Source: Candidatus Peribacteria bacterium
Lineage (GTDB): Bacteria > Patescibacteriota > Gracilibacteria > Peribacterales > Peribacteraceae
NCBI GenBank assembly: GCA_943357915.1
Contig: CALRGQ010000001.1
Location: forward strand, 70,816-134,815
Length of the DNA stretch: 64,000 nt
Reading direction: 5' to 3'
This document shows positions 2,246-11,972 of the stretch, one piece after another; within the stretch, counting starts at the first letter, position 1, and each line of letters begins with the position of its first letter. The notes under the pieces are model-generated. The model was not told the origin of the DNA and did no database searches. It worked only from the letters and a program-made list of their open reading frames with translations. A program made the translations under genes and the position numbers.

Positions 2246-5200
2246 TTACGCATACCGATCCTCTCGCTCGGGCACGAAAGCGCCAATTTGATTTCCTTCT
2301 TCGTCGTAGATGATAGGATCCTGAGCCGAACCGTACACTGTGCCACCACTCAGGTTTATGTATTCTCGGATTTCGGCTTGGGTGACGATGCCATCTTCAT
2401 TGATGTCTCCAGGGCAGAAAACATTGTTCGCATCATTTTTGTAGGCACCACTTAAAAGCCGCCATCCTAATCCACCGCCCACCACCGTGTTATTGCCAAA
2501 TGTTGTCGTATTCTTAGCTGTATATTTCCCGAGATTTTTTTGCATCTTCAGGTGAGAGCCTCCATGACAGGTCGATACATACTTTGTGGAACTCACGCCT
2601 GATGCATCAATAAGTTTTAGAATTTCTGAAGAATCAATCCACTCATCCCTTTTTATCACATTGCCTTTGTCATCTTTTTTATCCGTTGGGAATGTATAAG
2701 CCATTTTCCCTGCCGCTTCATGTGTGGATTCATATCCGTGGGCATGCAAGACTACCACGACATGCGCTCCAGTTTTCTGTAAAATTTCTAGTTTTCCACG
2801 AATCGCTTGATAAAAATCATGCGAGCTTCGGAAGTCATCGGAAATGATTTTATGATTTCCCCCTTCCGGCGCCTGATTTTTTTCATGATGCAGATGCGCA
2901 TTTATCTCTTTCGCGAGATCATCTTCTGCTTTAGAAAATTCCTTCGTTGCGATACTCAGAACATGCACTTCTTTTGGTTCTTGTTCTGCAAACTCTTCGC
3001 TCTTTGCAAAAGATTCCCACTGTTTCTTTCGTACATTTGCCCACTCTTCACGAATGTATGTCTGCATGGCAGGCCAATCCTTAAAGTCTCCCTTTTGCAC
3101 CCTCTTGATAATACGTTGATTTACCTGCATCAAAATGCCGTGATCTTTTTCTGCGTCGAAGTAGTGTCGATGTCTCGTAGGATCTGTGTATGGGTATCCA
3201 ACATTCTGAGAGCCATCTTTGAGCGCTGCGAGGATGTGGTCAGCATATTTCTGCTCACTCAAGGTCATCAATCTTTCGAGCAGCCACTGACTATCATGAT
3301 TGAACGGTGTGAATGATAGTTTCTGTGGCAGATTCACCTGTCCGTTGATTCGTGTCAAAAGCTTTGATGCTTTTTGAAACTTCTGTGCATAGGTACTTTC
3401 CGCAATGTATGAGAAGTATTCTAGATACGGTTTACCCACAGTGAGCGCATGAAGTCGTATATCTGTGGTAGGGATACCGATCTTGGGACCTTGAAGTAGA
3501 AGGGCGCTCGGTGCGGCATTCATCCTTTTTCGGATAAAATTTCTGATGGTACTTTCATTTGCTTTATCTTTTGTTGTTTTTCCTGCTTCGTACCACCCCT
3601 CTGCTGGCCTTGCTATCTGGAGAGTATCTTTCTCCTGTTTAAGATGCAGGGCTATTTTATACCTAGGCCCGTCATCTTTCCGATCAATGCATATGTATAT
3701 ATCCGGGCTTGTGCTTGGTCGGGGAAAGTGTGATGAAATCTCATAGAGACTGGCTTCCGTTCCAAGGCTAGACATGATTTCTTTTTTTGCGGATTCCGCT
3801 AGTCGATAAAGATCGTCACACATTGCCGGATAGTTGTCATATTCTTTCACAGAATATTCAAGATCGTATTTTGCATGACTCAAGGCATTGAGATCACTGT
3901 CATTTTCTCGATTTCTGTCTCTCCGCACCGGAATATCTGATTCCGGTAGAAGCGACTTTAGTGTTTTGACTGTTTCCAGCGCTTTTTCAAGTGATGCTTT
4001 GGTGAAAGGCGGTTTCGGCAACACTGCATTCGTCAACGTCTGCAGCTTTCGGGTGATTTGTTGCTCTCTTTCCTCCAAAGAAAACGAAGAGCGAAGATGT
4101 GGTGCCATCAGAGTGGCATCATGGTCATTTCTCTCACTTTCTATATTTTTCTCCTTCAATATTTTTTGAGCACTATCAATTCGCAAGAGAAGAAAAGGGA
4201 TTTCGTTTACAGCACTGACACTACCATTCAGCCACGCACTTTCCAGTGATACGGATAGTATTCCTATTTCTTTCGCCATACTCGTTAACTCTTCCTTCGT
4301 TGCATTCTGTGTGTCCTTGAGTGCTTCTTCGTACTCGAGCATCCTGGTTTTTGCTTTCGGTAGCTCTCGTGCGATGAAGGCGTCTGCAGGTTCGCCTTCT
4401 TGTTTCATTCTTTCCAGAACGCTCCCAGCCTCGCTTCTCGTTTTTTCTATATATTCACCATAATACGATACGCCAGCACTTGAAGGATTCTCTGCGACCT
4501 CGTTATAAAGAACAGTTGCATAGTAGTTAAGGTTACCTTTTGTTTTTCGTGCTTCAAATACTTCATGCAGATCTTCCGACGAATCGATTTCCTGTAGTGC
4601 TTCAAGAGTACGAATGTATATTTCTCGCGCTGTTTCTAGTAGAACTAGATTATCTCCTAACTTCTTCAGGTATTCCTCCGTGGGCTCATTCACTGACTTG
4701 TTTAATTCACTCTTTTCCGTGAGTGGAATGTAGTACGCCCACCTTATATCTCGAAATTTTCGAATCTCTTCGCCAATGCGCTTGAGTAGCGCTGCTTCAG
4801 CTTCCCTTGGCGGTATTTCAATCTTTTCAGCGTCTCGCTCCTCTTCACCTATTTCCTCTTTTAGTTTCGTGAGATTTGATCTTGCTTCCTGTTGAGCCTT
4901 AAATCGAAGGACTTCAGGAGGCGCCTCTTCGGTTGTAGCCTGCTCGATATAATCTTCAGCCGTCGGATCATACTTGGCGACTACTCCTGATGTTGTGACG
5001 AGGTAGAAGCTTGTGCGGCTTAACTTGAGAACCCAGCCATCTTCACCGTTGAACTTCGATGTCGTCTGTATCCATCGATCAGGAAAGTGTGGATTTTTTT
5101 CTTTTGCCTTTAGTTCGACATCGGGGTGCAGAAGTGCCTTCTGCGCATCGGTCATCTTGTCGTACCGCACCCAAGCATTATCGAAGGCAGCTCCTACCCG

Positions 5201-5365
5201 TCCCGAATCTGTCACGATGTAGTGATCACATGCTCCATCCTCATGCTTGTAGGTATAGAGCGTTGCTTTTTCATTCAGATACTCCGTAGCTTCTTCTTTA
5301 GAGAGCGTAGGTTGCGCTTTAAGGGTCTCATTTTGCTCTGCCTGCACTTTGGGTTCCTCAAACAT
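2246..5365 (-). CDS. Large hypothetical protein (1039 aa) with C-terminal caspase-like (clan CD) region and EF-hand/dockerin-like loop
   Basis: Long ORF; GAHVVVVLHAHG and TKYVSTCHGGSH resemble the His-Gly and Cys blocks of clan CD peptidases; C-terminal GDINEDGIVTQAEI matches a D-x-N-x-D-G calcium loop. Confidence 0.7.
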   Translation of the reverse strand: MFEEPKVQAEQNETLKAQPTLSKEEATEYLNEKATLYTYKHEDGACDHYIVTDSGRVGAAFDNAWVRYDKMTDAQKALLHPDVELKAKEKNPHFPDRWIQTTSKFNGEDGWVLKLSRTSFYLVTTSGVVAKYDPTAEDYIEQATTEEAPPEVLRFKAQQEARSNLTKLKEEIGEEERDAEKIEIPPREAEAALLKRIGEEIRKFRDIRWAYYIPLTEKSELNKSVNEPTEEYLKKLGDNLVLLETAREIYIRTLEALQEIDSSEDLHEVFEARKTKGNLNYYATVLYNEVAENPSSAGVSYYGEYIEKTRSEAGSVLERMKQEGEPADAFIARELPKAKTRMLEYEEALKDTQNATKEELTSMAKEIGILSVSLESAWLNGSVSAVNEIPFLLLRIDSAQKILKEKNIESERNDHDATLMAPHLRSSFSLEEREQQITRKLQTLTNAVLPKPPFTKASLEKALETVKTLKSLLPESDIPVRRDRNRENDSDLNALSHAKYDLEYSVKEYDNYPAMCDDLYRLAESAKKEIMSSLGTEASLYEISSHFPRPSTSPDIYICIDRKDDGPRYKIALHLKQEKDTLQIARPAEGWYEAGKTTKDKANESTIRNFIRKRMNAAPSALLLQGPKIGIPTTDIRLHALTVGKPYLEYFSYIAESTYAQKFQKASKLLTRINGQVNLPQKLSFTPFNHDSQWLLERLMTLSEQKYADHILAALKDGSQNVGYPYTDPTRHRHYFDAEKDHGILMQVNQRIIKRVQKGDFKDWPAMQTYIREEWANVRKKQWESFAKSEEFAEQEPKEVHVLSIATKEFSKAEDDLAKEINAHLHHEKNQAPEGGNHKIISDDFRSSHDFYQAIRGKLEILQKTGAHVVVVLHAHGYESTHEAAGKMAYTFPTDKKDDKGNVIKRDEWIDSSEILKLIDASGVSSTKYVSTCHGGSHLKMQKNLGKYTAKNTTTFGNNTVVGGGLGWRLLSGAYKNDANNVFCPGDINEDGIVTQAEIREYINLSGGTVYGSAQDPIIYDEEGNQIGAFVPEREDRYA

Positions 5366-5472
5366 AAATCCTCATATTATAGCATATCTATGCGGGAATT
5401 TCTATGTTCGGATTCCTTCTTGGATATCAAAGAAACATCATAAGCCTTGAGCATGGATAGTGTGTATTCCTT

Positions 5473-8400
5473 CTAGAAGAAGCTTCCTCCTCCCCCAAAT
5501 TTATACTGAGTCCTTTTCTCTTCACTCATATGATCACTCATGTATAAGCTTTCTCCTTTTTTTGCTAATATTTTCCCAATGTCGTCACTCACGTCTGTAA
5601 TTCCTGTCAAGATAACAGTCCCCGGAATCTCCACGAGTGCATTCGCGAGATCTATACTGATTGATTCTAAGCCCTCTAAAGACAGTTGTCCCCCCTTAAA
5701 ATCTTTAAAGTGACGTAACACTTCTGGAGTCAGCGTTTTTTCCGTTAGATTATCTAGTCCCAAATATTCTCCTGCAAACGGAGCGAGCGCAGTCGCTGCA
5801 TTTTCGTCCAGCGACGTAATTCCAAGATTGAGAGAAGGCCTAGAAACGGAAGCTAAGAATCTCGCGTCCTCTGCTGATATCGTATCTAATTTCGATAAAC
5901 TGAGACTCACATCGGTTTTCAAATTTTTTAGTTCTGCTGCTACGCCACCTGGCAGGCTAGTGAGCCCATTTAATTCAAGACTACTATTATTCTTTGCGAG
6001 CTCGCGAGCAACATTTGGTGTTAAAAATGCTACATTTATACCATTAAGTGAAAGATAAGAATTCATAGCGACCAAACCCCTTGCCTCACTTTCGGTTAAG
6101 AATGTAAGCCCACCGAAAGAGAGGCAAGAATCGTATTTTTCAAAATCCGCGATCAGCGTTGGTGTTAATTCTTTTATTCCATTCAGAGAAAGGAATGTAC
6201 CTGCTTCCTTAAATATTTTTACTACATCACTCTCGAGAGACGAAAGGCCGTTCAGGCTAAGGTCGTGTGGGATTTCCGATAAAGCAGTTGCTTGATCAGC
6301 ATTCAATGACGTTAATCCATCGAGTGAGAGCTTGTAACCGGTAAATTCTCCTAAAGCAGTTGCAAGATCTGAAGGCAGTTCCGTTAGCCCATTCAATGAA
6401 AGCTCTGCTAGATTAGGAAGTATTTTTGCTATTTCAGGCGTCATACTCGTGAGTCCATTGAGCGCAACTTTTGTTCCTTTGCTTGCAATAATCTCCGCAA
6501 CCTCGGCACTCAGTGGTTCTGTCACACTTGAAAGATCTATAAACACAGGATTTTCTTTCAATAGCCTTGTAGCGACTTCTGTTGACAGAGTTTTTTCGGT
6601 ACTTTTATTTGGGTCCCTCGGCATCGGAGGATCTTCATCGCCTGTTTCATCTTTTCCTGGCGGGATGGGTAGGGGAGTAACAGAGTCTCCTTTTTCTTGC
6701 TCAGATTTCTTTGTCTTATCTACCTTGTACTCTTTATCCAAATATTCCAAGAACTCCGATCGCCATGTCTTTTTTGTCGTATCAACCGTCTTTCTACCTT
6801 CGGTGTTTTTTAGATATATTTTTAATGTTTCGGGGCTCAATGTTGTGCTGAACAGGCCTTTCATATATTCGTATTCTGCTTTTTCTCCTAGATCTACAGG
6901 TTCGGCTTGTCTACCGAGTTCGATAATTGGGATGATCCATGCAGGATCAACAACTTCAAACCTACCAGTATCGTCCTGTTCCAACCCAGAATTTATCATA
7001 CTAATTCTAAAGTTTTCTTCACCGACTTTTTGCGTTTGAACTCTGAAGTCTTTCGTTCCCTTCTTATTGGTGATCAAGGCAATTTGTATCTTTTTGTCTA
7101 GAAGTTGGTACATCAAGTCTACTTCGATTTGTTTAGCCCCTTCTCCTGCAAAGACAATTTCTCTAAAGTTTTCAAAAGAATATTTTCCACCCTGCTTATT
7201 GATTTCTTGTAGGATATTTGAATATTTACTTTTCGCTAGATCATTCAAGGATTTTAGGATAGACAGCAATCCATCTAATTTTTGATCATCGGACCTTGCT
7301 TCAGGCCGAGATATTGTTTCATTTGATATTTCTTCTCGTAGGTTATTTATCTCTTTCAATGAAACAGCTTCGATGGGTTGCTTGCTTAATTCCTCCACCC
7401 TCGCTTTAAAACCTTTCATTTTTTCTTCTAGTGGATCAGTGTCTTTTTCCCTCTCATCAGCTGCTAACAAATGCTCCTCTATTTTCTTGATGACTTTATC
7501 AGTCTCATTTACGTATGAAATAGCAAACCTACCCTTGTCTCTTTTTACAATAACGTTCATTATAACACTTCCATCGATAGCGATATCAATGTCAAGCCAA
7601 CAGGATTGGCCACCTCTCGTCAGCTCCCAGCGAATCAGTTGAGCGTATGGATCATTTTGCTCTACAAAGACTGTTCCCTTGGGGAATCTGGGCTGTAGGT
7701 TTGTAAAAATTTTATTGATATTCTTTACCCTTTCTTTTTTTTCGTTTATCTCAGATTCCAATTTTTTGATTTCCTCAGCTTCCTTATCGCTTGGACTATA
7801 TTGTTTTGCTTGATCTAAAGCTGTTTTTGCTTCATCTAGATTGTCTTCCTTCAATAATTGGCATAGTCCTATGCCACAAGCAGCACTCTTTAAAACCAAA
7901 CCTTCTTTTAGTAATTTTATGGCAGCATCTTTCTCTTGGATTATTAAAAAACATTTGGCACCTAAATATCGGACTGATATATCTGTAGGTTTTTCAGTAC
8001 AAAATCTTCCGATTTCAGCTTTTACCTTTGCCACGTTTATACCATCACCCATAGGTGTCTCGTGGTTTGCTACGAGATATAGGAGCAAAAGACGAATGTC
8101 TTTTTCTTGGTTTTTTTCTATAATGTCAATATACATTTGACTCGCCCATTGCAATTGGGATTTTTTTACTTCGAGTTTTTCCAACAAAATAATTATTTGA
8201 TCCGGTTCTAGTTTTTGAATTTCTGTTTGCATAGAATTCAATGCTTCCTGATCTGCGTTTGTCAGATCTCTCTGGAGAATGTCGCTCAGTGCTGGCATTT
8301 TAGCTCCTAAATCATCTTTTCCCTTCTCAGCGTCTGTTAACAAATAATTGTTTATTTTCTGAATGACTTTATTAGTATCATTTAGAGTGAATGTATATTT

Positions 8401-11400
8401 TGGAAAGAATTGATTTAGAACATTTCCTTCTCTTAGTCTTTGACTTACTTCAATAGACAGCTCCCCAGGGATGTCAGAGCCTATCTTTAGCCTACAAGAT
8501 TGATCACCTCTTGTTAATTGCCATTGTCTAAAGTCTGGTTCTTGATAATCTGGGATTTCCACTTTTGTTCCTTCCGGAAATTTGGACTGTAGGTCTGTAA
8601 AAATTTTATTGATATTCTTTGTCCTTTCTTCAAGCTTTTCATCTTTCTCGGCATCAGTCTCTTTTTTCTTCTCTTCTGCCAATGATTTTCCTGATTGGTC
8701 ACATTCGATCAGTGTTCCAGTTGCGTCAATTTTAAAGCAGGATTTGCCATTCTCGCTTTGATAAATACCATCCTTTTCTACCATCAACTTTCCATAATAG
8801 TCGAAGTATTGGTTTCCATCTTTTCCTTTGTAGATGGTATTGGTTAGCGTTCCTTGCATCGCTACAGTTACTTCTTTAAATGAATTATCTTTTTCAAGAA
8901 TATAGGAGGTATTTATATCGTTTATTTTATTCCAGATATTACTATCTGTAGCATAAGTATTGAAGAATACGTCATTTCCATGCTTGCGGAATCCAATGCT
9001 ATTGGTTGTTATTTTTGTTATATCAGGTTTTAACGTACCTTTTTCTTGTTGGAAGTTTTTTTTGACTTCCTCAGGGGCTTTTGGATCGATTATAAGATCT
9101 TCCCCCTTCGGCATCGGCACATCTTCATCTTTATCAGCTTCTCCTGTCGGGATGGGCGGGGGAGAGTTACTCTCATTGATTTTTTTGTATTTATCAAAGT
9201 TTTCATTGATTTCCTTTAACTGTGTCGTCAATTTTGCCGCATTAGTCTCTCCTTCTTTATTTATATTTATTTTTAGTTCCGGAATAATTCTACCCCATAT
9301 TTTCGCTGCCTCATCGTATTTTCCAGATATCGCAAGTATACATGCTTTAGTATCTTCGTAGCCCAGATCTCCCGATCCGATTTCTATTGCCCTATTGATA
9401 ACAACAAGCGCTCTATCTTTTTGCTCTTGCGTTGGATGTGGCATCTGCGAAATAGCATATGCATATAAATTTGGTGCTTCTGGGTCGATAGCATTACCTG
9501 TCTTAGCATCCATAATTTTCTCTAAATAAACCAGTAGTTCATCGAATTTATTTTCTCTGAATAGATCTTCAGCTTTTTTACTGTCCATTTTTTCAAAGCA
9601 ATGCAGAATTTTCCCTGTTAGATCGAAGGAAATTTCTGCAATGTTCTCAACAACAGCATTCCCGTCTTCGTTTATCGTCGTTGGTCTTGTCCATATTTTT
9701 ACTTGATATGAAGATACTTCATTTCTACCTTCTTCACCTACGTTTGCTACTTCCATTGAGTGAGTTTGTGAGCTGATTCTTCCTTGTAATTTTTTATCAA
9801 TCATTTCCATGAGTCTTTCATATCGTGGTTCACCGGGTTTGATTGATGTATCAGCATTGAAATTCTTCAGAATGCCTGGGATCGTCGCGGGTTTTTCTGT
9901 TTCTTCTCCTGGTGGTGGTGGCTCTGGCACGCCTTCGTCTACGTTTCCTGTCGGGATTTCTATGAGTGAATCTAGATCGACTTCTTCACCCGCTTTACCC
10001 TGACCACTTACACGGCATGAACCAAGGTTTTTTTGTGTCCCATTTAAAAAACTACTGACAACAGAGAAGGTGCCGCTGCCAAAAAATGCGATGCGCATTT
10101 CGCCTGCATCATCACGGTATACCATGATGTCACTATTTGGATCTTTTCGGTCACCAACTTCCATGTTCTCAACATTGATCTGTGTGACGGGTCCGGTATT
10201 GTTTTTTGTGATGTATAAGTTCTGAATTGGACCTCCCGCTGATGTAGTATCGATTGGCTGAGTGATGCCTAGGGCGTCTTGTAATGCATGCTTACTCTCG
10301 ATCTCCTGCTTTTTCTCTGTAGCTGCCTCACCAACAACGATGTCTCTTCCATCGACGTGGTATGTTCCTTCCCTTGTAAATGAAAGAGATACGCCTGTCG
10401 CATCATAATTTGTCGTACTACCTGGCGCCATTCGCTTCACTTTATAGGTGATGCCCCAATTCTTCATTTTCTGAGCCTCGGAGCTATTATCAAAAATTGA
10501 CCTCTTGCTTGGTGATAGTTTAATGGTTTGGCTCATGCCAAATTCATCTCGTGGTGTCCTGATCATGACTCGCTTATCTCTATCATTCCAAAGCTTGATG
10601 TGTGTTATCACGCCATCTTCATTGAACGGGATGTTGCCATACTCGGCAAGGCCTTGCTGCTGCTTATCAATGGTGTCGAGACGTGTGCGTAGCGTCGCAA
10701 GATGGTGGTAACGTACCGTTCTATCGTTTGCTCCAGGTCTACTTATAAGATCTTGATATTGCTCAACTGCCTCTTGTGCCGCTGGATTGTCTGAAAGGTG
10801 ATCATATTTTCCATTCTGAAAAATGTCATGTGCGATCCTCCCGGCATGATGATTCGCCATATCGCTACTGGATATCTTTCTTTTATTTGCGCGAACATCT
10901 TTGTGGATATATACACTGTTTTCACCAGTTTTGTACGTAGTACCTTCGCTGTTCTGTATATGTTGCGCCATCGCTGCATCCGACCAATTCACTGGGTTCG
11001 GGATATTTCTCTGAGAGTTAAAGCTTTGGCCGAAGTGTGCTGCGGTTGGATTATGATTATGAAAGCGCTTGAGCTCTGCCAAGGTCGGTGGCCTGCGATA
11101 GGGTGTATGCGATGCCATCGCTGTACGAGCCCCTTGTGGCAGTGGGTAGTTCCCCGAATATCCTCCTGAGAAATTTTGTTGTATGAATTGATCCGTTCTT
11201 GCCGGAGGCAGCAAAGTACGTTCATGGATTGATGGGAAAGAATATCCTCCGTTTTCTTGTAGTTCGGGTCTGAACCCGTTTACTACTATCCTCTCTCTCA
11301 ATTCCGCGATGATAGCGGTTCTGCGTGCCTCAGCGTCTCGAAGTGTCTTTACTTCTGCCCGTACTGTTACAAGTTCTTTATCTTGCTTTGCTAAACGAGC

Positions 11401-11556
11401 TTCTAACTTAGCCAAACGAGCATCACGAGGATCTACATTTGTCGTCTCTTCAGGTTCTGCGGGTGGGAGCAGTTTATTAGACTCTTCAAAAATTAACCGA
11501 TGCTCACGCATCTGCGATTCATTGTCACGGCCGAACGTGGAGAATGGGTGCATCAT
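5473..11556 (-). CDS. Giant hypothetical protein (2027 aa): N-terminal coiled coil, TPR-like segments, internally duplicated module, Pro-rich linkers, C-terminal LRR-like repeats
   Basis: Single 6.1-kb ORF; repeated LSLNGLTSL-x(n)-A units at the C-terminus; two copies of (K)NINKIFT(D/N)LQ...(R/W)xLTRG(D/G)QSC module. Confidence 0.85.
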   Translation of the reverse strand: MMHPFSTFGRDNESQMREHRLIFEESNKLLPPAEPEETTNVDPRDARLAKLEARLAKQDKELVTVRAEVKTLRDAEARRTAIIAELRERIVVNGFRPELQENGGYSFPSIHERTLLPPARTDQFIQQNFSGGYSGNYPLPQGARTAMASHTPYRRPPTLAELKRFHNHNPTAAHFGQSFNSQRNIPNPVNWSDAAMAQHIQNSEGTTYKTGENSVYIHKDVRANKRKISSSDMANHHAGRIAHDIFQNGKYDHLSDNPAAQEAVEQYQDLISRPGANDRTVRYHHLATLRTRLDTIDKQQQGLAEYGNIPFNEDGVITHIKLWNDRDKRVMIRTPRDEFGMSQTIKLSPSKRSIFDNSSEAQKMKNWGITYKVKRMAPGSTTNYDATGVSLSFTREGTYHVDGRDIVVGEAATEKKQEIESKHALQDALGITQPIDTTSAGGPIQNLYITKNNTGPVTQINVENMEVGDRKDPNSDIMVYRDDAGEMRIAFFGSGTFSVVSSFLNGTQKNLGSCRVSGQGKAGEEVDLDSLIEIPTGNVDEGVPEPPPPGEETEKPATIPGILKNFNADTSIKPGEPRYERLMEMIDKKLQGRISSQTHSMEVANVGEEGRNEVSSYQVKIWTRPTTINEDGNAVVENIAEISFDLTGKILHCFEKMDSKKAEDLFRENKFDELLVYLEKIMDAKTGNAIDPEAPNLYAYAISQMPHPTQEQKDRALVVINRAIEIGSGDLGYEDTKACILAISGKYDEAAKIWGRIIPELKININKEGETNAAKLTTQLKEINENFDKYKKINESNSPPPIPTGEADKDEDVPMPKGEDLIIDPKAPEEVKKNFQQEKGTLKPDITKITTNSIGFRKHGNDVFFNTYATDSNIWNKINDINTSYILEKDNSFKEVTVAMQGTLTNTIYKGKDGNQYFDYYGKLMVEKDGIYQSENGKSCFKIDATGTLIECDQSGKSLAEEKKKETDAEKDEKLEERTKNINKIFTDLQSKFPEGTKVEIPDYQEPDFRQWQLTRGDQSCRLKIGSDIPGELSIEVSQRLREGNVLNQFFPKYTFTLNDTNKVIQKINNYLLTDAEKGKDDLGAKMPALSDILQRDLTNADQEALNSMQTEIQKLEPDQIIILLEKLEVKKSQLQWASQMYIDIIEKNQEKDIRLLLLYLVANHETPMGDGINVAKVKAEIGRFCTEKPTDISVRYLGAKCFLIIQEKDAAIKLLKEGLVLKSAACGIGLCQLLKEDNLDEAKTALDQAKQYSPSDKEAEEIKKLESEINEKKERVKNINKIFTNLQPRFPKGTVFVEQNDPYAQLIRWELTRGGQSCWLDIDIAIDGSVIMNVIVKRDKGRFAISYVNETDKVIKKIEEHLLAADEREKDTDPLEEKMKGFKARVEELSKQPIEAVSLKEINNLREEISNETISRPEARSDDQKLDGLLSILKSLNDLAKSKYSNILQEINKQGGKYSFENFREIVFAGEGAKQIEVDLMYQLLDKKIQIALITNKKGTKDFRVQTQKVGEENFRISMINSGLEQDDTGRFEVVDPAWIIPIIELGRQAEPVDLGEKAEYEYMKGLFSTTLSPETLKIYLKNTEGRKTVDTTKKTWRSEFLEYLDKEYKVDKTKKSEQEKGDSVTPLPIPPGKDETGDEDPPMPRDPNKSTEKTLSTEVATRLLKENPVFIDLSSVTEPLSAEVAEIIASKGTKVALNGLTSMTPEIAKILPNLAELSLNGLTELPSDLATALGEFTGYKLSLDGLTSLNADQATALSEIPHDLSLNGLSSLESDVVKIFKEAGTFLSLNGIKELTPTLIADFEKYDSCLSFGGLTFLTESEARGLVAMNSYLSLNGINVAFLTPNVARELAKNNSSLELNGLTSLPGGVAAELKNLKTDVSLSLSKLDTISAEDARFLASVSRPSLNLGITSLDENAATALAPFAGEYLGLDNLTEKTLTPEVLRHFKDFKGGQLSLEGLESISIDLANALVEIPGTVILTGITDVSDDIGKILAKKGESLYMSDHMSEEKRTQYKFGGGGSFF

Positions 11557-11894
11557 TGGTCTTGGATTTTTTGTGTGAGTGTTTCCAGTGCCTTTGTTCC
11601 CTCCTCTGCATCTTCTTCTTTTGCGATCGTGTTTATCTTTTGTACTATGTCATCGCAGAAGGCCTGAGCGTCATCACAGAATGCGTTTATCGCTGTTTCG
11701 CAGATGTTATAGGCCAGTGAGTACTGGGCATAGCGTGCGTCGTGCTCTTCTTTTGTTTCATTCTTATACGGGGTGTCGAGGGTTGGAATATTTGCCGAGA
11801 CGAGATCCGGCTCGATGTGACTCATGAAAAAATCGTACAAGGTTTCCGCACTCTCGAATGCCTTTGCAGGGACAACGTGTGGGATTTTTCTCAT
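11553..11894 (-). CDS. Small acidic hypothetical protein, translationally coupled to the giant gene
   Basis: MRKIPHVVPAKAFESAETLYDFF...; stop overlaps the downstream start (ATGA at 11553-11556). Confidence 0.65.
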   Translation of the reverse strand: MRKIPHVVPAKAFESAETLYDFFMSHIEPDLVSANIPTLDTPYKNETKEEHDARYAQYSLAYNICETAINAFCDDAQAFCDDIVQKINTIAKEEDAEEGTKALETLTQKIQDQ

Positions 11895-11972
11895 AGGTTT
11901 TTGTGTGGATTTCAGATCATTATAGCATAAAAGATGGATTTTTGGCAATGCGTTATTCCTCTCGTGCACTCC

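Follow-up and report, generated by a model that had tools for sequence, protein, structure and literature searches.

Type III secretion chaperones are small acidic proteins whose genes adjoin those of their effectors, and the effectors carry an N-terminal recognition segment ahead of a variable body. LXG effectors of type VII secretion system b (T7SSb) are encoded with the small helical partners Lap1 and Lap2, and combine a constant N-terminus with a polymorphic C-terminal part (PMC9600955). In the published genomes of Peribacteria, strains are distinguished chiefly by proteins of very large size, part of which are extracellular (PMC4736985). We analyzed 64,000 nucleotides (nt) of a Candidatus (Ca.) Peribacteria genome (GCA_943357915.1, contig CALRGQ010000001.1, positions 70,816 to 134,815; hereafter the window, which is numbered from its first letter). 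Three co-oriented genes on its minus strand encode proteins of 113, 2027, and 1039 amino acids (aa). We show that the genes for the small and the giant protein are a real conserved unit, a two-component cassette specific to Ca. Peribacteraceae, and that the three genes together are not one conserved system. A description of such a module was not found in the literature searched, in which journal coverage was partial. The pair bears on the question of how ultra-small bacteria of the candidate phyla radiation (CPR) act on partner organisms, and by which proteins.

Results

The small protein (113 aa; 11553..11894, minus strand) serves as the marker of the module. It belongs to an unnamed, mostly acidic family (median isoelectric point 5.0; below 6 in 44 of 51 members), and no known family was found for it in Pfam, NCBIfam, or PDB sequences. 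AlphaFold predicted a four-helix protein (residues 16-27, 33-38, 48-92, and 96-112) with a predicted local distance difference test (pLDDT) value of 87.5. A profile built from two members in the source genome matched 69 of 75 Ca. Peribacteraceae genomes, mostly with 1-5 copies each. When an alignment of 48 members was used, 53 of 57 genomes of the family were matched vs. one, marginally, of 235 genomes from other families of the class. Contigs were also scanned with a subset of close members, and the named records were all Ca. Peribacteria, Peribacteraceae, Peribacter, or Peregrinibacteria. The source genome carries a second cassette (L013), in which a small protein with 30% identity is followed by a 1585-aa protein. 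In other cassettes, differing small-protein genes were paired within 1-2 kb (L055:4422-5858, L056:2406-3853, and L051:13748-15602), and a short or unusual gene sometimes lay in between.

The gene of the giant protein (2027 aa; 5473..11556, minus strand) overlaps the small gene by ATGA, and the coordinates on the minus strand bear out the first-pass annotation, which had described three co-oriented genes with this overlap between the first two. We examined 40 stretches of up to 20 kb, which were picked among the better-scoring small-protein matches and not at random. The starts of partner open reading frames (ORFs) were assigned by a script, and an ORF of at least 150 aa was counted as a partner. 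Of 48 small genes, 46 had a large-protein ORF that started at a distance of -20 to +26 nt, with an ATGA overlap in 13. Complete partners spanned 171-2027 aa, and the sole part that they shared was an N-terminal tag. The tag of the window giant (MMHPFSTFGRDNESQMREHRLIFEE, residues 1-25; 11482..11556, minus strand) is common to partners in other genomes and was recovered by profile in the source genome.

The pattern of the tag is roughly M-x4-F-x(5-12)-E-x-R-L-hydrophobic-aromatic, and E and R were invariant in 35 aligned members. E-x-R-[LEFIMVR] occurred no more than 45 residues from the start in 43 of 48 partners. The strict form, ExRL in the first 45 residues, was present in 35 of 48 partners vs. 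19 of 313 other genes; the pattern had been set after the partners had been inspected, a circularity that the control genes and the N-terminal recovery elsewhere limit and do not remove. At least 11 of the 19 control genes with ExRL were, by inspection, tagged neighbors. A search with a profile of the tag alone matched 40 of 57 genomes of the family vs. 7 of 235 outside it.

The very short spacing and the ATGA overlaps are compatible with a gene-expression leader, in which translation coupling or regulation, and not a protein function, would be the role of the small gene and of the giant's conserved start. However, conservation is at the level of protein sequence for both the tag and the small protein, whereas the gaps vary from -20 to +26 nt, and the predicted fold of the small protein is confident. 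We find a leader scarcely credible.

Beyond the tag, the bodies were alike in 15 of 1081 partner pairs (E 1e-6), and Pfam matches in them occurred as singletons only. Domains known from effectors or toxins were recognized in a few of the bodies, namely, a J-domain, DUF4116, and, below threshold, DUF6861. A match of the latter kind was observed in a 3557-aa tagged protein (L052:961-11632); DUF6861 is presumably associated with ADP-ribosyltransferase toxins. The partners lack signal peptides, and one strongly hydrophobic segment was detected in 48 proteins. The window giant was noted from the outset to have no signal peptide, which was borne out, and a strongly hydrophobic segment was not found in it either. 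Compared with neighboring proteins, partners contain 0.18% vs. 0.91% Cys and half the His, whereas Asn, Gln, and Lys are raised. The Cys-poor composition and the near-lack of hydrophobic segments fit exported flexible proteins.

The same proteins may also be read as cytoplasmic scaffolds. The tag would then be a docking peptide by which long scaffolds made of coiled coil, TPRs, or LRRs are anchored to a structure inside the cell (division, nucleoid, or envelope), with the small protein as a subunit of that structure and no export. The lack of signal peptides, bodies rich in coiled coil and repeats (a J-domain in one), near-universal presence, and fixed housekeeping locations are consistent with this role. 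However, the divergence of the bodies is far above that usual for core scaffolds, several genomes hold 3-5 different copies, and the depletion of Cys is strong. We consider a scaffold role unlikely.

Twenty of 42 loci adjoin aspS, mfd, or dnaN, and 11 adjoin carA or rpoC. The flanks of the three-gene segment are also housekeeping genes at conserved chromosomal positions. These conserved positions beside housekeeping genes favor vertical inheritance of cassettes that stay in place while their bodies change rapidly, and a mobile or defense-island origin was rejected on the same ground; when the position of the segment relative to defense islands was checked, conserved housekeeping sites and no defense island were found.

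Tagged large proteins also exist without the small protein. Genuine N-terminal tags were present on large proteins outside the family (L176, L183, and L195), and two family genomes in which the small protein was not detected still have tagged proteins (L177 and L185). In the first of these (G016, L177), an unrelated 101-aa ORF lies 2 nt upstream of the tagged gene. A genome of another family (G074) encodes an 851-aa tagged protein with a 109-aa ORF downstream (L176:1807-4695) and a 1100-aa tagged protein with a 163-aa ORF upstream (L195). In the source genome, a 741-aa tagged protein of another kind (contig C13; L174:2849-5074) has several hydrophobic stretches, and a recognizable relative of the small protein was not found upstream of it. 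Since such proteins exist, the small protein is not needed for every tagged protein, and, outside Ca. Peribacteraceae, its place as partner may be taken by other small proteins.

This distribution bears on another explanation, namely, that the partners are surface proteins exported by the pili or the type II-like machinery of these bacteria. The tag would then be a sorting signal used throughout the class, and the small protein would be no more than an accessory in one family. Substrates of the type II secretion system (T2SS) normally need a Sec or Tat signal, and there is no N-terminal hydrophobic segment in the partners. The checks of co-occurring machinery covered VirB4 and EssA only. In favor of this route, large proteins of other families in the class begin with the tag although this small protein does not accompany them, unrelated small ORFs adjoin some tagged genes (L177 and L195), and T2SS and type IV pili are reported in Peribacteria (PMC4736985). 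We regard it as distinctly unlikely.

The body of the window giant contains the repeat-like segments that had been noted in the initial reading. The TPR-like region (about residues 655-800; 9157..9594, minus strand), over which no Pfam domain exceeded the threshold, is in a 236-residue stretch (residues about 563-792) with 40% identity to P0004, the 1585-aa paralogue of the second cassette elsewhere on the same contig. Two copies of an internal repeat of approximately 100 aa follow (residues ~977-1075 at 8332..8628 and ~1275-1370 at 7447..7734, both on the minus strand). The C-terminal LRR-like repeats (about residues 1680-2005; 5542..6519, minus strand) have a period of 23 residues, as seen from the autocorrelation, which peaks at 23, and from the regular spacing of the units. 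Stretches resembling this region are present in G075 and G026; in the latter, tandem ORFs of about 400-450 aa on contig C22 (7027-11535; L004, L008, and L010-L012) contain LRR-like repeats that resemble the giant's C-terminus. The C-terminal 200 residues of P0004 comprise two near-identical tandem units of ~94 aa, a sign of recent internal duplication.

The third gene encodes the 1039-aa protein (2246..5365, minus strand), which was detected in this genome only. Searches of 96 relatives, 292 genomes of the class, 389 genomes of the phylum, viral contigs, phages, and plasmids yielded no homologue. Weak matches in the phylum corresponded to an EF-hand/dockerin-like loop (GDINEDGIVTQAEIR, residues 986-1000; 2366..2410, minus strand) or to chance, and the match in G372 was to the loop only. 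Its C-terminus had been called caspase-like, a proposal that the fold and the positions of the motifs support, whereas sequence families do not: a Pfam C14 or CHAT match was not obtained at E up to 10. C14 members in the phylum, found in 4 genomes, were too few for a profile comparison with the caspase-like domain. An alignment-free model of residues 790-1039 was of low confidence, with a mean pLDDT of 48, with about 70-86 in most blocks of fragment residues 51-140. The order of strands and helices in the model is that of the caspase fold, and the best 50 PDB fold matches listed were all caspases (top E 4.3e-4). In the caspase-like domain (about residues 800-960; 2486..2968, minus strand), His876-Gly877 terminates the third core strand (868-876) and Cys933 the fourth (926-933); His876 is encoded at 2738-2740 and Cys933 at 2567-2569. 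Judging from this model, the C-terminus probably has a caspase-like fold. The protein is possibly a protease that acts on the cargo or on the target of the cargo.

The three genes had been described as one operon. Co-orientation stands, and a terminator-like site was not found between the 2027-aa and 1039-aa genes; however, a single operon is too strong a claim because promoter-like sites precede genes 1 and 3. The predicted promoter of the small/giant pair (11919..11948, minus strand; TTGCCA-18-TATAAT, with TG before the second hexamer) had the top score of the region (11/12), and the predicted separate promoter of the 1039-aa gene (5376..5404, minus strand; TAGAAA-17-TATAAT, with TG before it) was joint second best (10/12), both being consensus matches only in a scan in which the total number of sites was not above chance. 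Because the 1039-aa gene has its own promoter-like site and no relative was found, it is probably a separate unit, outside anything conserved. A 25-codon ORF (MLKAYDVSLISKKESEHRNSRIDML; 5426-5350, minus strand) lies directly before this gene. It has E-H-R where tags carry ExR, and is out of frame with the MFEEP start that follows. This ORF is possibly a decayed tag, or it arose by chance.

The first-pass annotation had likened the locus to a defense or cell-death module. In such a module, the LRR/TPR giant would detect invaders and then switch on the caspase-like protease. LRR-like and TPR-like repeats do adjoin a probable caspase fold, and the three-gene segment is more AT-rich than the surrounding genes, as had been noted (GC content 37-46% vs. 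about 48-52%). However, Pfam, NCBIfam, and PADLOC gave no significant match for any of the three window proteins, and an NTPase (NACHT, NB-ARC, or AP-ATPase) or CHAT domain was not found among them in these searches, in agreement with the earlier remark that no NTPase domain was seen. The protease accompanies the pair in no other genome searched, its gene has a predicted promoter of its own, and the flanks are housekeeping genes at conserved positions. The first-pass annotation had named a lack of co-occurrence of the two giants in any other genome as grounds for refuting its reading, and this was the outcome: the small/giant pair is family-wide, whereas the 1039-aa protein was found nowhere else searched. 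We consider a defense module very unlikely.

Discussion

The present study revealed a pair of constant elements, a small protein and a tag, attached to bodies that vary almost without limit. We tentatively favor the explanation that the pair handles or exports hypervariable cargo, a reading that falls just short of being probable. It is suggested because a short constant N-terminus, a small acidic helical partner, and a variable body follow the logic of chaperone-effector or LXG-Lap pairs. We speculate that the small helical protein is made just before the large protein and binds the F...ExRL-hydrophobic-aromatic tag. It would keep the long, flexible, Cys-poor cargo competent and guide it to a shared destination, for which an export route is the most likely candidate. 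With the tag and the partner fixed, the bodies would be free to diversify, and the cargo may affect partner organisms from the cell surface or outside the cell. We infer these roles in binding, export, and surface or effector activity by analogy with the systems named above.

Several results weigh against this explanation. A fold relative of the small protein was not found among PDB folds or viral folds, which leaves it without a tie to known chaperones or WXG100 proteins. Tagged large proteins occur without it in the source genome (L174) and in other families. The depletion of Cys fits cytoplasmic coiled-coil proteins as well. No export machine was tied to the pair: PF03135 (VirB4) was detected in 19 of the 75 family genomes but not in the source genome, in searches that could miss a divergent VirB4, and EssA was not found in the source genome, where EssC was not searched. 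A type IV machine was not supported as the companion on these counts, with PF03135 in 19 of 75 genomes vs. the small protein in 69 of 75, and a type VII machine was not supported by the result for EssA.

A broader proposal is that the ExRL tag serves Gracilibacteria-type bacteria as a class-wide N-terminal address, which would direct proteins into a route of export or assembly not described so far. In Ca. Peribacteraceae, a dedicated helical partner would then accompany tagged proteins of hypervariable sequence. These are encoded at fixed sites in the chromosome, and some of them have effector-like domains. This proposal is doubtful.

The presence in one family of a near-universal pair with a fixed tag, a fixed partner, and near-unlimited variation of the body is a sign of proteins under strong pressure to diversify. 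The tag allows such proteins to be collected from any genome, and the small protein is open to biochemical testing without culturing the organism.

The 1039-aa protein resembles the caspase-like proteases of clan CD (family C14, metacaspases, and TPR-CHAT) in the order of its strands and helices, with His ending strand 3 and Cys ending strand 4. The usual Cys motif of caspase-like proteases is D-x-C-x-G, whereas this protein has CHGG. In contrast to TPR-CHAT and NLR-like (STAND) defense systems, no NTPase or CHAT domain was found here, and the protease is absent from relatives that carry the pair.

The large extracellular proteins of Ca. Peribacter riflensis belong to the same bacterial group, are likewise very large, and vary between close strains (PMC4736985). 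However, the proteins highlighted in that study are rich in Cys, and most have signal peptides (PMC4736985), whereas the tagged proteins are Cys-poor and lack them. The window pair is similar to LXG effectors and Lap1/Lap2 (PMC9600955) in that small helical partners are encoded with a large protein whose N-terminus is constant and whose C-terminal part is polymorphic, and neither has a classical signal peptide. In contrast to the long helical domain of LXG effectors, the constant part of the tagged proteins comprises about 20 residues. Unlike T7SS components, no WXG100-like or LXG Pfam match was listed among 48 small and 40 large proteins, EssA was not found, and the small protein had no PDB fold match; one small protein matched ESAT6_2 of NCBIfam at chance level (E 0.045).

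The arrangement of type III chaperone-effector pairs is matched here, with a small acidic protein adjoining a large protein with a constant N-terminus. However, this small protein is all-helical and does not match the fold of a solved chaperone in PDB. Among the defining features of chaperone-effector and LXG-Lap families that we tested, gene arrangement alone was found in the pair. The anatomy of the pair is new, with no family, fold, or motif match, whereas its proposed mechanism resembles that of known chaperone-cargo pairs.
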